Of a DNA stretch of 64,000 nucleotides, positions 3,440 to 63,799 are shown one piece after another (positions within the stretch are counted from its first letter, which is position 1; the number at the start of each line of letters is the position of its first letter). This stretch comes from Atopobium sp. BS2 (lineage in GTDB: Bacteria; Actinomycetota; Coriobacteriia; Coriobacteriales; Atopobiaceae), in assembly GCF_000565075.1 (NCBI RefSeq), contig NZ_JDFG01000048.1, forward strand, positions 1-64,000, written 5' to 3'. Under the pieces are notes generated by a model. The model was not told the DNA's origin. It worked only from the letters and a program-made list of their open reading frames with translations, and ran no database searches. Position numbers and translations under genes: made by a program.

Positions 3440-4441
3440 GTGAAAACAACCGAGCTCCTAGGCGCAAAGGTCCTTCTTCCCAAAAAGCCCGCTACAAAGG
3501 GCAAGCACGCGGGAGAAGAGCGGTTTTCCAAGTTAGGAAGAATCCACAACGTGGTTTTTGCCCCCTTCAAACAGGGTCAGCCTTCGCAGGTAGTGGGCGT
3601 GATGGTTCAGAAGCCCGATATTGCTGGCATGATTAAGCAGGATGATGCGTTTGTCACTTTGGAGTCTCTGGAGACCATCGAACAGGGACTTTGCGTTAAA
3701 GATCCCGAGAATAACGTTGATAAAGCTGCAATCAAACGTCTGAACTTGGACTTTGATACCTGCATTCTATGGCATGGTATGGAAGCTCGCACTAAGAGCG
3801 GCAAAACCCTAGGTTACGTGAGTGGCGCTGAGTTTGACCAGGTCACTGGCGTGGTCTTGGCATTTCTTGTGGGCGATGGCGCTGGATCGGAAGCGCTGGT
3901 AGGCTCGTTTGCCATCAAGCCAGAGTGGCTGTTAGGTTACTCTAACGGTGCAATGGTCCTCTCTGATGAAGCGGCAGATGCCCAACTCACTGGTGGCCTG
4001 GCTGCAAAGGCAGGCGAGGGATACGCAGCTGCCGCCGCAAAGGCTTCTGAGGCTACAGCTAAAGCCGGAAAGGTTGTTGCAGAGGCCACCGAGAAGGGCG
4101 CGTTTGCCCTGGGTAAGACGCTGGCCAAGGCAAAGCGTGCTATCGAAGATGCTACCGAGCCTGACGCAGAAGACGATTCCGAGCGCCCGGCTCCCGTTGC
4201 TGCAGAGGACGTTCGTCTCGAGAAGCCATCTGTGGAGGAGCAGGCTGCCGCTGACAAGTCCGCTGCAGACAAGTCCGCCACTGACAAGAGCGCAGCTAGT
4301 AAGCCTACCGCTAAGCCTGCGAGCAAGTCGTCCACGCAGGCTACTGCTAACAAGGCAGCTAAGGGTTTTGGTATGCAGCTTGGACGCATGGGTAAGATGT
4401 TCTCTGACTTCAAGGATGAGTTTGACAAGGCAAGCAAGTAA
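3440..4441 (+). CDS. PRC-barrel domain protein with Ala/Lys-rich C-terminus
   Basis: The 333-residue product contains what look like two PRC-barrel-like beta segments: residues ~1-75 (LLGAKVLLP, KLGRIHNVVFAPF) and ~110-165 (GKTLGYVSGAEFDQVTGVVLAFLVGDG). A helical Ala/Lys-rich region (~190-245) follows, then a tail with repeated DKSAADKSA units and a basic end. The GTG start at 3440 has AGAGAGG about 7 nt upstream. PRC barrels are found in ribosome-maturation and photosynthetic proteins and in envelope proteins of unknown role. The MgtE-like protein on the opposite strand (5906-7792) also begins with a PRC-like domain. Function not assigned. Confidence 0.75.
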   Translation: MKTTELLGAKVLLPKKPATKGKHAGEERFSKLGRIHNVVFAPFKQGQPSQVVGVMVQKPDIAGMIKQDDAFVTLESLETIEQGLCVKDPENNVDKAAIKRLNLDFDTCILWHGMEARTKSGKTLGYVSGAEFDQVTGVVLAFLVGDGAGSEALVGSFAIKPEWLLGYSNGAMVLSDEAADAQLTGGLAAKAGEGYAAAAAKASEATAKAGKVVAEATEKGAFALGKTLAKAKRAIEDATEPDAEDDSERPAPVAAEDVRLEKPSVEEQAAADKSAADKSATDKSAASKPTAKPASKSSTQATANKAAKGFGMQLGRMGKMFSDFKDEFDKASK

Positions 4442-4522: not shown

Positions 4523-5905
4523 CTACAAACCCATGGCCTGTAGAATGAACATCACAATGGTCAGGATGATGACGGTGATGATGGTAAACCAAGTCAGCGC
4601 GTTCCAGATGCGACCGTTGGCGTACTTGCCCATGATGTGTTTGTCGGCTGCGATGATAACCATAAAGACAAGCAGAATTGGCAGCAGAATACCGTTGATG
4701 ACCTGGGCGGCCATCATAATGCCAAAGAGACTCATGCCTGGAATCAGAACAACCAGCGCAGAAATGACTAGCACGGTTGTAATAATGCCGTGGTAGACAG
4801 GGGCTTCCTGCCAGCTGCGGTCGGCTCCGCGCTCCCAACCAAATGCCTCGCAGATGGCGCTTGCAGTAATGCCTGGTAAAACGCATGCTGCCAGGAAGGA
4901 TGCGCCAACCATACCCAGCGCAAAGAGCGTACTTGCGTACTGACCAGCAAGTGGTTCAAGGGCGCGAGCAGCGTCGGCAGCGGAGTCAACAGAGATTCCA
5001 CGAGGGAAGAGGACAGCGCCGGTGGTCAGCATGATGAACCAGGTAATGACCTCGGCCAGGATTGCGCCGGCAACATTGTCTGCACGCTGTGCAGGAATGT
5101 CGCTGGTATCAAGGTTCTTCTCGACAACATTTGATGCAACCAGGAAGATCATGTATGGGCTGATGGTAGTACCAATATTTGCGACCAGCAGGGAAATGTA
5201 GGACGGATCGGCGGAAGGCTGCGGAATGATGGTGACGCGCAGGGCCTCGCTCCAGTCGGGCTGAGCCAGCACGCCGGCCACCACGTACGTGACAAAAATG
5301 CAGCTAATTGCCAGCAGAATCTTCTCGATGCGACGGTATGATCCGCCAACGGTCAGAAGCCACACCATCAGGGCGCTGATAGGCACCGAGACGTACGTTG
5401 GGATGCCAAAGAGCTCCATACTGGACGCAATACCTGCGAATTCGGAGAAAGTAACAGCAATGTTGGAGAGCAGCAACGCACCCATTGCCAGCGTGGACAG
5501 GCGGATACCAAAGCGCTCGCGCACCAGCGACGCAATGCCTTTACCGGTGACACAGCCCATTCGAGCTGCGGTTTCTTGAACTACGATCAGCAGGAAGCAC
5601 ATAAGCGGTACGGTCCACAGCTGAGAATAGCCAAACGTAGCGCCTGCGCTGGAGTAGGTTGCAATGCCACCGGCGTCGTTACCAGCAAATGCGGCGAGAA
5701 GACCGGGGCCCATTGCCATCAAGATGTACTTGATGCTGTTTTTGTTGACCGGAGCCTTCTCTTTAGATGCGCGTTTGCCCTGCTCGACAACGATTCCGTC
5801 GCCCGCAGAAAGCTGGCCGACGGCGTCCTGGCCATCAGCGTCCTGCTCTACAACCACGCCCTGCTCTGCAACCGCGTCCTTTACGTGTGCGTTTTCCTGC
5901 GCCAT
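4523..5905 (-). CDS. NRAMP-related divalent metal transporter, probably Mg2+ class (NRMT)
   Basis: A SLC11/NRAMP-fold membrane protein of 460 residues with a ~55-residue hydrophilic acidic N-terminus and about 11 hydrophobic segments. The helix-1 signature that is DPGN in classical Mn/Fe transporters reads DAGG (residues 77-80). The helix-6 motif MPH reads SPY (249-251), so the sulfur ligand that selects transition metals is missing. Established work on an Eggerthella lenta homologue shows that NRAMP-related proteins lacking this methionine transport Mg2+ (and Mn2+). Specificity here is inferred. The start codon directly abuts the stop of the MgtE-like gene (5906), so the two are co-transcribed. 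One GGCGAGAA copy lies at 5693. Confidence 0.88.
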   Translation of the reverse strand: MAQENAHVKDAVAEQGVVVEQDADGQDAVGQLSAGDGIVVEQGKRASKEKAPVNKNSIKYILMAMGPGLLAAFAGNDAGGIATYSSAGATFGYSQLWTVPLMCFLLIVVQETAARMGCVTGKGIASLVRERFGIRLSTLAMGALLLSNIAVTFSEFAGIASSMELFGIPTYVSVPISALMVWLLTVGGSYRRIEKILLAISCIFVTYVVAGVLAQPDWSEALRVTIIPQPSADPSYISLLVANIGTTISPYMIFLVASNVVEKNLDTSDIPAQRADNVAGAILAEVITWFIMLTTGAVLFPRGISVDSAADAARALEPLAGQYASTLFALGMVGASFLAACVLPGITASAICEAFGWERGADRSWQEAPVYHGIITTVLVISALVVLIPGMSLFGIMMAAQVINGILLPILLVFMVIIAADKHIMGKYANGRIWNALTWFTIITVIILTIVMFILQAMGL

Positions 5906-7792
5906 TTACATCACGCTCACAAGCGAGAGAGCGTAAGAGAGGACGAAGAATGTCACCACCGAAAGGCTCATAGAAATCAGGGTAAGCGTGAGACCTGAGG
6001 TTTCCTGGTTTTTCTCGTCACGATGGCGAAGTACAGCCAAGAAAATTGGGGTTAGCAGGAAGGAAATAAGCGTAGAGCCTGCTGCTGCGCCAAAGATCTG
6101 AATAATGGTCTGGTCAAAGAGCGCCGCGTAGAATACGCCTGCATTTGGATCGTACGGGTGGAATAGCGCTTCTAGCAGGGCGTGAGCTGCGGCGCCAAGA
6201 ATGCAAATAAGGCCGCTGACCAGAAGACCCAGTAGAAGCGAGCGGAAGGCAAAGCCTAAGATAGAAGGAGATTTCTCGCTGCCAGGATCGTCTGTGAGGA
6301 AGAAGTTTGTCACATAGTTGACGGTATTCTCGCTCAAGTTCAGCGAGATTGGCATGGTAATAGTGCAAAGAGCTGCGAAAATACCCATGATTGGATTGGA
6401 TGTTGCGGCTGTTCCTACAAAGGCAGCAGTCACAACGGAGGCAACCCAGAACAAAAGCCAGAGGTTGCGGTGGAGGAACCAAATAATGTTGCGGCCGCGG
6501 TCGCCAGAATCGGAATCGCTCCTGCCGCCACCAACAATCTGCAGGTCCTCGGCGTGCTCCTCTTCAAGAACGTCAAGAGCATCGTCGACGGTAACAATGC
6601 CCAACAGGCGGTTGTCGTCAGAAACAACAGGCATGGCCAGCAGGTTGTATTTTGCAATGTTTCGAGCAACGTCTTCCTGATCGTCCTCTGGTGAGGCGGT
6701 GACCAGGTTCTTATTAGCAATCTCCTCCAGACGAGTTTCTGGCTCGGAGACAATCAGGCGGTTCAGGGTAACAATTCCGGACAGACGGCCATCCTCATCA
6801 GTAAGATAGAGATAGCGGACGGTCTCAAAATCCTCGTCCAGGTTACGCAGGCGATCAAAGGCGTAGGCAACGGTCTGGTCCTCAGGAACAGAAAGCGCCT
6901 CGGACGTCATAATACGACCGGCGGTGTACTCGCGGTATCCCAGCAGCTGCCTAATTGCGCGCTGCTCCTTAACGCCCATCAAGCGCAGGAGTTTCTCGGC
7001 ACGGTCATAGCTCAGCTCGGAGACAAGTTCGGCTGCGTCGTCTGGGTCCATCTCGGACAGGATACGGGATGCTTCTTTTTCGTTCAGGCCGCCGATGAGC
7101 TCAACTGCCATGGCGTCGTCGTTGAACTCTGCCATTGCGCCAGCTCGCTGCTCGTCATCAAGCTGGGCAAACACCTGGCTACGCAGGCGAGAGTCCAGGC
7201 GCTCGATGATGTCAGCGACGTCAGCAGGGTGCAGCTCGTCCAGCGTTTTGTGGGAAACGGAGAGCTTAACGTTGGAGAGGTCGCGCTCAACCAGGTCCAT
7301 GTAACTCCACGCAATGATGCGCTCCTGCATGGGGTGACCCATGGCGCGCGCAATGCGGGTAACCAAGTGCTCTAGCTGGGGAGAAAGGCTGCGCAGCAGA
7401 CCGCGTGCGCCAACCTCTGCGCCCAGAAGACGCAGCTGCGTTGAGCTAGTATCGGAAAGCTTGAGGTCGTTTACGCGGACAACGCGAATGCCGCGCGTAT
7501 CAACAATTTGCTTGTTCAGAATATCTCGGGCGAGAAGAACCTCGTTAGGCTGCAGGTACGAGAAACGAATCTCAGTTGAAGGCACCTTGAGCCTAATGAC
7601 GTCCTCATCGTAGGTATCAACATACTTGCGCCAAGAAATCATCATTGGCGTGCGGCCAGGGCCCATAAAAGCCAGGGAAGTAATGCGAGGAAAAACTTCT
7701 CCGGTAGCAATTCCAAGGTCGGAGACAGAACCGATCTTCTCGCCTTCTGAATCTAGAACCGGATTACCCATTAACTGGGAAAGATAAATCAT
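5906..7792 (-). CDS. MgtE-like magnesium transporter with N-terminal PRC-like domain
   Basis: A 628-residue protein. Residues ~1-130 form a PRC-barrel-like region. Next comes an MgtE N-terminal superhelical domain (~190-300; LHPADVADIIERL, MDPDDAAELVSEL), then two CBS domains (~305-425; ILGIVTVDDALDVLEEEHAEDLQ is the MgtE-type end). The last ~170 residues hold five hydrophobic segments. The cytosolic part is a recognisable Mg2+ sensor; the membrane part is diverged from canonical MgtE. ATG with AAGGAG upstream. It is transcribed with the downstream NRAMP-related gene behind a ~200-nt leader. GGCGAGAA copies lie at 7529 and 7737. Confidence 0.85.
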   Translation of the reverse strand: MIYLSQLMGNPVLDSEGEKIGSVSDLGIATGEVFPRITSLAFMGPGRTPMMISWRKYVDTYDEDVIRLKVPSTEIRFSYLQPNEVLLARDILNKQIVDTRGIRVVRVNDLKLSDTSSTQLRLLGAEVGARGLLRSLSPQLEHLVTRIARAMGHPMQERIIAWSYMDLVERDLSNVKLSVSHKTLDELHPADVADIIERLDSRLRSQVFAQLDDEQRAGAMAEFNDDAMAVELIGGLNEKEASRILSEMDPDDAAELVSELSYDRAEKLLRLMGVKEQRAIRQLLGYREYTAGRIMTSEALSVPEDQTVAYAFDRLRNLDEDFETVRYLYLTDEDGRLSGIVTLNRLIVSEPETRLEEIANKNLVTASPEDDQEDVARNIAKYNLLAMPVVSDDNRLLGIVTVDDALDVLEEEHAEDLQIVGGGRSDSDSGDRGRNIIWFLHRNLWLLFWVASVVTAAFVGTAATSNPIMGIFAALCTITMPISLNLSENTVNYVTNFFLTDDPGSEKSPSILGFAFRSLLLGLLVSGLICILGAAAHALLEALFHPYDPNAGVFYAALFDQTIIQIFGAAAGSTLISFLLTPIFLAVLRHRDEKNQETSGLTLTLISMSLSVVTFFVLSYALSLVSVM

Positions 7793-8001
7793 GTGTGCTC
7801 CTTACATGCGTCCGAAGACTAAAGCGTGGCATTGGCGAGAAACTCCGCGTAATTGCCACGGGGACTGCATTGCGATTTCACCCCTCACGGTGCAAATCGG
7901 CACACCGCAAGAGGTCAGCGACTGTGAGGTCGAGGTTTCATGCTGACCTTTCTCTTCATCCAATAGAACGTGAATTGTGCTTGCGAGGGCAATTCACAGA
8001 T
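7793..8001 (-). promoter_or_regulatory. Structured 5' leader of the MgtE/NRMT operon
   Basis: The predicted transcription start near 8001 leaves about 200 nt before the MgtE-like ATG. Several perfect stems are visible on the minus strand: GTGAATTG/CAATTCAC (7997-7990 with 7977-7970), GGTCAGC/GCTGACC (7948-7942 with 7919-7913) enclosing CGAC/GTCG, and CGTGGCA/TGCCACG (near 7859-7853 and 7831-7825) just before the start. I could not match it to the M-box, yybP-ykoY or ydaO consensus. A metal-sensing riboswitch or attenuator is the natural guess. Confidence 0.5.
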
Positions 8002-8007
8002 GTAATT

Positions 8008-8036
8008 ATTTTAACGATTTTTCTGCGAGGCTGTAA
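8008..8036 (-). promoter_or_regulatory. Sigma-70-type promoter for the MgtE/NRMT operon
   Basis: Minus strand: TTACAG (8036-8031), a 17-bp spacer, then TAAAAT (8013-8008). Good spacing and sequence, upstream of the long leader. Confidence 0.6.
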
Positions 8037-8079
8037 AGACTCTTCACATAATCTAGCTGTTCGGATTTGGTTGTAACCG

Positions 8080-8096
8080 GCGTACGAGAAGTACGC
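8080..8096. other. Small perfect hairpin upstream of the MgtE promoter
   Basis: GCGTAC (8080-8085) pairs with GTACGC (8091-8096). A related CGGCGTACGAG word recurs at 8112-8122. No T-run follows. Role unclear. Confidence 0.35.
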
Positions 8097-8162
8097 GGAC
8101 AACGGTTAAACGGCGTACGAGCGGCGCACGACAAGTTCAATCTGTGAGGCAACGCTGTGCAT

Positions 8163-8200
8163 AAAAAAGCCCGGTACCTGCGGAAATGCAGATACCGGGT
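8163..8200 (-). terminator. Rho-independent terminator of lemA
   Basis: CCCGGTA and CTGC arms (8170-8181 with 8188-8199) form a long stem; on the minus strand the hairpin is followed by six T. It lies directly downstream of the LemA stop. Confidence 0.85.
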
Positions 8201-8232
8201 TGTACTGGTACAAAGGGTAAACGAAGCAGCTC

Positions 8233-8775
8233 TTAGAACTGTACGTTTGGTGCCTGACGAGCGGACTCGTCGGTAACCTGGAAGCTTGTACGTGGGGAAC
8301 GTCCACCAGCAAGAAGGTTGTTTGGGAAAACAGCGATGATATTGTTGTAGTTCATGACAACATCGTTGTAGCTCAAGCGAGCGTAGCTGAGGCGGTTCTC
8401 GGTGTCAGTAAGCTCTGCCTGGAGCTCCAGGAAGTTCTGGTTAGCCTTGAGCTCTGGGTAGTTCTCAACAACAGCAAACAGGTTGGTCAGAGCATTGGAA
8501 AGAGTGCCGGAAGCCTGCATCTTCTCTTCAGGAGTGCGTGCATTTGCGACTGCAGCGCGAGCAGAAGTAACTGCCTCAAAAGTCTTAGACTCGTGAGTTG
8601 CGTAACCCTTAACGGTGTTGACCAGGTTAGGGATCAGATCGTTACGACGCTGAAGCTGCGTATCGATAGCTGCCCAAGCGTTGTCGCACCTGTTGCTTGC
8701 GCGAATGATGTTGTTGTGAATGCTAATGGCCCAGAAAACCAGAAGGACAATAACTACAACTGCGGCAATAATCAT
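8233..8775 (-). CDS. lemA: LemA family membrane protein
   Basis: A 180-residue LemA-family protein: one N-terminal transmembrane helix (MIIAAVVVIVLLVFWAI), then the long antiparallel helical core with RCDNAWAAIDTQLQRRNDLIPNLV, the family signature, and YNDVVMNYNNIIAVFPNN near the end. The ATG at 8775 is chosen because GAAAGGA lies 6 nt upstream; a TTG five codons earlier overlaps that site. LemA proteins are common in bacteria but their biochemical role is unsettled. A TATAAT -10 is present upstream at 8837-8832. Confidence 0.9.
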   Translation of the reverse strand: MIIAAVVVIVLLVFWAISIHNNIIRASNRCDNAWAAIDTQLQRRNDLIPNLVNTVKGYATHESKTFEAVTSARAAVANARTPEEKMQASGTLSNALTNLFAVVENYPELKANQNFLELQAELTDTENRLSYARLSYNDVVMNYNNIIAVFPNNLLAGGRSPRTSFQVTDESARQAPNVQF

Positions 8776-63733: not shown

Positions 63734-63799
63734 TGAGCACGTGCTCATAAAGACGCCCCTGCTCTGGTCGGAAACCAGAGCCGATGTAAGGAGTCCTGC
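63734..63799 (+). promoter_or_regulatory. Hairpin leader of rpmE (L31 autoregulation candidate)
   Basis: TGAGCACGTGCTCA (63734-63747) is a perfect palindrome. GCTCTGGT and ACCAGAGC then form a second hairpin that ends just before GTAAGGAG. Ribosomal-protein leaders for L31 have been described in Coriobacteria by comparative genomics; I infer that this is one. Confidence 0.55.

Follow-up and report, generated by a model that had tools for sequence, protein, structure and literature searches.

Nramp-related transporters of the NrmT type have been described with an adjacent gene for the cytoplasmic domain of MgtE, and feedback control was speculated upon in that work (Shin 2014, PMC4072509). The pairing itself is thus already published and is not new. 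In the EleNRMT report (PMC8806188), DxxG in helix 1 and TxxA/T in helix 6 are given as the NRMT motif; the words "operon" and "PRC" are absent from its main text. Here we analyze such a pair, an Nramp-type gene preceded by a gene for an MgtE-like partner protein and by a short upstream leader, in a stretch of 64,000 nucleotides from Atopobium sp. BS2 (RefSeq assembly GCF_000565075.1, contig NZ_JDFG01000048.1, positions 1 to 64,000 of the forward strand). This whole stretch is referred to as the window.

Leader open reading frames (ORFs) of the mgtL type are short ORFs at Mg2+ transporter genes. In Salmonella, translation of another short ORF, mgtQ, frees the sequestered ribosome-binding site (RBS) of mgtB and needs acidic codons (PMC8092293). 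The parts of the NRMT literature consulted contained no demonstrated role for the MgtE-like partner. Judged mostly from search results, no paper joined a PRC barrel with MgtE, with or without NRAMP, and none pointed to the leader peptide or the MgtA fusion described below.

In this study, we compared the window operon with related loci. We consider, with a probability of about two in three, that it combines a Mg2+ importer (NRMT) with a regulatory subunit of its own that senses Mg2+, and that a leader peptide controls the two. The pairing, the loss of pore residues, the retention of sensor residues, the fusion of the same module to an MgtA-type pump, the conserved leader ORF and the covarying segment opposite the RBS (anti-RBS) can be read directly from the sequences.

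Results

Conservation of the gene pair

The stop codon of the partner gene directly abuts the ATG of the Nramp gene, with 0 bases between them. Pfam identified PRC (34 bits, residues 1-70), MgtE_N (81 bits) and two CBS domains (78 bits) in the partner and an Nramp domain (294 bits) in the second protein. The adjacent stop and start, the NRAMP-fold protein and the MgtE-like protein with a PRC-like domain, as named in a first-pass annotation of this DNA, are thus borne out by the ORF coordinates and Pfam. The MgtE pore domain PF01769 had no Pfam match in the window partner, and the NCBIfam mgtE model aligned with residues 172-460 only (210 bits, below its cut-off of 232.75 bits).

A scan of genome contigs with the partner as query gave 65 loci, and 60 further loci came from genomes of the class chosen one per genus; 124 loci were examined, with the window locus (L001) and a Sebaldella match (L066) excluded. 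Both genes were present on the same strand, partner upstream, in 123 of these 124 loci, the exception (L056) stopping at a contig end. The pair, which the annotation had seen in this one strain, is therefore conserved in Coriobacteriia and not unique to the strain. A match to the partner module was found in 65 of 67 genomes (one per genus, picked for having an Nramp match), and the two genomes without it (G004 and G219) hold no Nramps other than ones with ~31% identity to the query. Weaker Nramp copies (29-35% identical) numbered 16 in the genus-representative genomes, and a module match lay beside none of them. The pair is far from a chance occurrence. Long open frames around the NRMTs at some loci (e.g., L012 and L030) were considered as fusions of the two genes and rejected, because at the loci read they lie in a different frame from the partner. 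At one locus (L126, G049:C30), the partner gene appears to be split over two overlapping frames, by a frameshift or an assembly error.

Pore and sensor residues of the partner protein

The alignment set comprised 94 full-length partners, 22 short partners, 10 canonical MgtE proteins of the same class and a stretch of Thermus thermophilus MgtE. The pore motif GGNxGxQ of the second transmembrane (TM) helix occurred in 0/94 full-length and 0/22 short partners versus 10/10 canonical MgtE proteins, the last count being by selection, since these were chosen by the motif. The pore Asp of TM5 (D432 equivalent), for which no selection was made, was found in 0/94 full-length partners versus 10/10 canonical MgtE proteins.

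The sensor acids had a different fate. Equivalents of D91 and D247 (site Mg4) were present in all 94 full-length and all 22 short partners. The D259 equivalent was found in 94/94 and 14/22, the E258 equivalent in 93/94 and 6/22, the D95 equivalent (as D or E) in 91/94 and 22/22, and the D250 equivalent (as D or E) in 93/94 and 22/22, respectively. With site labels taken from PMC5882242, the acids of sites Mg2, Mg3, Mg4 and Mg6 are present in the window partner, and the E59 and D226 equivalents are not.

Mean identity to the window partner among 93 full-length partners was 0.70 for the PRC domain, 0.77 for the linker, 0.70 for MgtE_N, 0.64 for the CBS pair and 0.25 for the TM part. A rough ratio of nonsynonymous to synonymous substitution rates (dN/dS), for which dS was saturated, was 0.20-0.34 for the TM part versus 0.03-0.10 for the cytosolic part. 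Partners of sister families still gave weak PF01769 matches (9.4e-4 to 1.2e-7), suggesting that the TM part arose from an MgtE pore domain by decay. An AlphaFold2 model of the partner (42 sequences, mean pLDDT 75, pTM 0.42) matched MgtE (2zy9) in Foldseek with E 2.1e-20. VIA-align placed residues 182-624 of the model on full-length MgtE (5x9h) with Z 20.6 over 403 residues and a root-mean-square deviation of 12.9, a high value that indicates domains shifted between the two. The Foldseek and VIA-align lists, filled by CBS matches, held no PRC structure, which has no bearing on the Pfam call.

Related partners have shed most or all of the TM part. The short partners (445-458 amino acids (aa); 20 from family f2, one from f4 and one from f6, in Eggerthellaceae-like genomes) had a single predicted C-terminal TM segment in 22/22 cases by a simple hydropathy scan. 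More distant partners beside Nramp genes (L147-L149 and L154-L158; 421-495 aa) had no TM segment (8/8). Plasmids of Alicyclobacillus carry a partner and an Nramp gene with an M-box, the 414-aa partner being annotated as a CBS protein. Judged by sequence, the partner would not be a working channel, a conclusion that is new here. The annotation had treated the MgtE-like protein as a transporter, and this does not agree with pore residues missing from every full-length partner and a single TM helix in the 22 others.

The same module in other contexts

In 2 of 296 genomes searched (G615 and G577, of the same phylum), the module opens a 1317-aa ORF that ends in a Mg2+ P-type ATPase. The ATPase part is of MgtA type (TIGR01524, 1099.3 and 1077.4 bits; cut-off 610.75), and the module shares 53% identity with the window partner over residues 1-410 of the latter. 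The two fusion ORFs, from families f43 and f59, are 90% identical over the module, and the fusion is present in 2/31 genomes of the class of G577. Of 88 records that matched the module, the 40 listed, whose neighbours were not inspected, showed no further MgtA fusion. To our knowledge, known MgtA/MgtB family members need no such module. With this fusion, the MgtE_N-CBS sensor is therefore found with three unrelated Mg2+ importers (MgtE, NRMT and the MgtA type), which suggests that the module is a portable Mg2+ sensor.

A five-TM module without an adjacent Nramp gene was found at six loci (L143-L146, L150 and L151), also without GGNxGxQ; a seventh locus (L142) reaches a contig end. By eye, one gene upstream and one downstream of the module recur at these six loci. 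We take them to be a MerR-like helix-turn-helix gene (upstream) and a bifunctional-nuclease-like gene (downstream).

The Nramp protein

Among solved structures searched with phmmer, 7qia was closest to the Nramp protein (E 2.3e-153, 514 bits), the next Nramp structure scoring 110 bits. We take 7qia to be the Mg2+ transporter EleNRMT of Eggerthella lenta. The DAGG and SPY motifs pointed out in the annotation are present in the sequence, the second within GTTISPY. Helix 1 (DAGG) fits the NRMT motif DxxG. In helix 6 (TTIS), the Met is gone and Ser stands where the NRMT motif has Ala or Thr. GTTISPYM occurs in 14/123 NRMTs and Ala at that position in 79/123, with 30/123 outside the search pattern. 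Homology to EleNRMT and the NRMT motif lend good support to what the annotation had predicted from the loss of this Met, namely Mg2+ transport by the Nramp member.

In the own genome, searches gave no PF01769 match at E 0.01 and no CorA match. An MgtA-type Mg2+ P-type ATPase is encoded there at G000:C28:29623-32454 (1028.5 bits, with neighbours). The NRMT is therefore not the only candidate Mg2+ importer, and the idea that it is the sole one was rejected.

A leader ORF and anti-RBS upstream of the sensor gene

In the window, the leader in front of the sensor gene has the layout AGAGAAAGG-TCAGC-ATGAAACCTCGACCTCACAGTCGCTGA (minus strand). An ORF of 5-40 codons ending in PHS plus at most 6 residues was found in 83/117 leaders: f1 49/59, f2 17/20, f3 4/4, f4 1/1, f6 1/3, f9 1/1, f11 2/2, f12 1/11, f15 3/3, f17 3/3 and f26 1/1. 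It was seen in 0 of one leader each from f7, f8, f18, f20-f23, f25 and f29. In nine further f1 leaders the ORF is present and has a different residue in the PHS part. The forms, each followed by a stop codon, are MKPHSP/T/I (f15, f17, f26), MKPHSTQPR (f11), MKPHKPHST (f9), MKPRPHSx (f1, f4), MK(S/P)KPRPHSx (f3) and MKVRK(S/P/Q/H)KPHSx (f2). The 42 distinct ORFs start with ATG (12), GTG (19) or TTG (11) and stop with TAG (22), TGA (13) or TAA (7), and their Pro codons vary (CCT, CCC, CCA, CCG). In 77 genomes (67 genus representatives and 10 of the own family), the pattern MK..PHSx plus stop had 51 matches in 46 genomes. By their coordinates, 44 of these matches, each in a different genome, lay shortly before the module and the other 7 lay elsewhere; a reversed control pattern had 9. 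A shorter pattern matched the own genome at 3 places including the window leader, and the control at 2.

The anti-RBS mostly starts 5-8 bases past the leader stop, with a larger distance in some leaders of f2 and f11. Its duplex with the RBS had -18.5 kcal/mol for true pairs versus -15.0 for swapped pairs (59 non-redundant of the 83 leaders). As low an energy was reached by 0/20,000 permutations overall, 0 within f1 (25 leaders), 0 outside f1 (34) and 2 within f2 (17); such counts are not probabilities because related genomes are not independent. A stem that encloses the leader ORF (P1) covaries as well (0/20,000 permutations in 46 leaders; f1 0), and is without support inside f2, where 13,432/20,000 permutations were as good. 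We consider it likely, from these sequence comparisons, that the element is a translational attenuator, which is new here, and the leader ORF probably sets the amount of both proteins. Neither the leader peptide nor this putative attenuator had been noticed in the annotation.

The M-box (RF00380) covariance model had no match in the window, and positions 7700-8300 gave none even at E 5. Rfam scans of 70 class loci placed an M-box upstream of the pair in 25: 24/26 outside the own order (both exceptions f11) and 1/44 inside it (L072, f9). M-box and leader ORF occur together in three f15, three f17 and one f26 leaders and at L075 and L072. We read this distribution as that of an old leader ORF that coexists with the M-box and was left alone in most of the own order.

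Table 1. Positions of the operon, its upstream element and the fusion ORFs (window coordinates unless a locus is given)
Feature	Position	Strand	Remarks
Sensor-like partner gene	5906-7792	minus	628 aa; first of pair
NRMT-type Nramp gene	4523-5905	minus	460 aa; second of pair; predicted Mg2+ transporter
Partner domains			PRC barrel aa 1-70; conserved linker 76-180; MgtE_N 187-288; CBS pair 289-418; five degenerate TM helices 432-628
Partner TM region	5909-6499	minus	aa 432-628; diverged from MgtE pore domain
Leader ORF	7915-7941	minus	MKPRPHSR plus stop; with Shine-Dalgarno sequence
P1 stem, 5' arm	7942-7948	minus	GGTCAGC; between leader Shine-Dalgarno sequence and ATG
P1 stem, 3' arm	7913-7919	minus	GCTGACC; overlaps leader stop codon
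Anti-RBS segment	7900-7905	minus	GTGTGC; just past leader ORF; duplex and permutation test
RBS region of sensor gene	7793-7801	minus	GGAGCACAC; complementary to anti-RBS
Alternative 14-bp hairpin	7880-7915	minus	strong; overlaps anti-RBS and P1 3' arm; RNA fold of 7778-7957
Module-ATPase fusion ORF	L139:2281-6231	minus	actinobacterial
Module-ATPase fusion ORF	L140:2293-6243	minus	actinobacterial

Three other features of the window may be mentioned. A CorC/CNNM-type protein of a Mg2+-linked family (CNNM, CBS and CorC_HlyC domains; 563-1921) is encoded on the opposite strand, ~2.6 kb away from the operon. A 333-aa protein without a Pfam match (3440-4441), whose N-terminal half is PRC-like by eye, is encoded convergently to the operon. 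An L31-Coriobacteria ribosomal protein leader (RF03128, 45 bits) is located at 63761-63793.

Discussion

In the model we favor, the partner would have descended from an MgtE channel after gaining a PRC domain, retaining the cytosolic MgtE_N-CBS sensor, losing the pore and keeping the TM part as a membrane anchor. At high cytosolic Mg2+, ions bound between MgtE_N and CBS would close the sensor and the NRMT would be held inactive; at low Mg2+, the sensor would release it. In the leader, the segment after the ORF would pair with the RBS of the sensor gene and turn translation off; a ribosome halted where the ORF ends would cover the anti-RBS and leave the RBS free. Physical contact with the NRMT, the sign of the control and the signal sensed by the leader are parts of this scheme that we infer. 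The annotation had suggested that the MgtE sensor part perhaps regulates its partner; this remains the best reading of the sequences, and the idea was already put forward by Shin 2014 (PMC4072509).

Several observations weigh against this model. In the window partner, the E59 equivalent is Gly and the D226 equivalent is Asn. The MgtE contacts for ATP are R187, D188, F227, Y170 and N203 (PMC5529423); the first three are lost in the window partner and the last two are present. ATP sensing by the CBS pair was accordingly rejected as a function, since the majority of these contacts are lost. Because six five-TM modules have no adjacent Nramp gene, the NRMT is not the sole context of the module. 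In Shin 2014 (PMC4072509), the A. capsulatum NrmT, which has a partner of this kind, was found to act chiefly in Mn2+ transport, so the pair alone is no proof of Mg2+ specificity. In the same work, co-expression of the A. capsulatum partial mgtE gene gave no better Mg2+ rescue and NrmTs were functional without such a partner, so the partner is not required for transport. As for the leader, its Ser codon is AGT in 42/42 distinct ORFs; RNA constraints therefore act too, and part of the conservation may concern RNA and not peptide. The minimum-energy fold of the window leader puts the anti-RBS in the local 14-bp hairpin, and the fold is only mildly stable (z -1.79; 10/200 shuffles as good).

A partner that is still a channel for Mg2+ or another ion, with an altered pore, would make the operon a set of two importers. 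The five TM helices, the MgtE-like fold and some purifying selection on the TM region (omega 0.20-0.34) would suit such a protein, but its pore motif and pore Asp are gone from all full-length members, the TM part is the least conserved region and related pairs have one helix or none, so that we find this highly improbable. It is unlikely that the partner instead serves as a chaperone or scaffold for the assembly or stability of the NRMT, with merely structural Mg2+ sites. PRC barrels often mediate contacts and the linker is the most conserved region, above the CBS pair, which is what a scaffold might show; yet the Mg4-site acids are present in all partners, and the module is also joined to a second, unrelated Mg2+ importer.

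With regard to the upstream element, a structured RNA with no more than the look of an ORF, either a riboswitch or a protein-binding leader, would account for the covariation of P1 and the invariant Ser codon. However, the Shine-Dalgarno sequence is correctly spaced, start and stop codons vary, ORF lengths of 6, 8, 9, 10 and 11 codons differ by multiples of three bases, Pro is written in four ways, and P1 lacks support within f2; we regard this alternative as rather unlikely. Also unlikely, if somewhat less so, is a leader that senses general translation stress (e.g., stalling at basic residues) and not Mg2+. In favor of it, its peptides are basic, without the acidic residues on which mgtQ depends; against it, the leader is specific to the front of this operon and occupies the place of the M-box of sister families. 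A broader proposal combines two claims, that PRC-MgtE_N-CBS is a portable sensor used on MgtE, NRMT and the MgtA pump, and that the PHS leader of Coriobacteriia is a ribosome-based Mg2+ sensor replacing the M-box; we offer both together only tentatively, as a possibility short of even odds.

Since the pore is lost, the sensor is retained and the same module is fused to a pump, a biochemical test of the partner appears worthwhile. If our model is true, the leader ORF would add a new member to the small set of leader peptides known for Mg2+ transporter genes, and it lends itself to a natural comparison, across sister families, between an operon under riboswitch control and the same operon under a leader peptide.

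Compared with known systems, the partner shares with the T. thermophilus MgtE channel (2yvx, 2zy9, 5x9h) the MgtE_N-CBS sensor fold and several Mg2+-site acids, and differs from it in lacking the pore motif, the pore Asp and most ATP contacts and in having an added PRC domain and linker. MgtA/MgtB Mg2+ P-type ATPases (TIGR01524) are linked to it by L139 and L140, where an ATPase of this family is fused to the sensor module. EleNRMT is the nearest solved structure to the window Nramp, which has Ser, and not Ala/Thr, at the Met position. The NrmT systems of Shin 2014 (PMC4072509) likewise consist of an Nramp-related transporter and an adjacent MgtE_N-CBS gene; many of them are under M-box control, whereas the window operon has no M-box and adds a PRC domain, a degenerate five-helix TM part and a predicted leader-peptide attenuator. 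The nearest precedent for the latter is mgtQ (PMC8092293), also a short ORF beside the sequestered RBS of a Mg2+ transporter gene. In contrast to mgtQ, the leader peptide of Coriobacteriia is unrelated and basic, ends in PHSx before the stop, and in its common forms contains no Asp or Glu.

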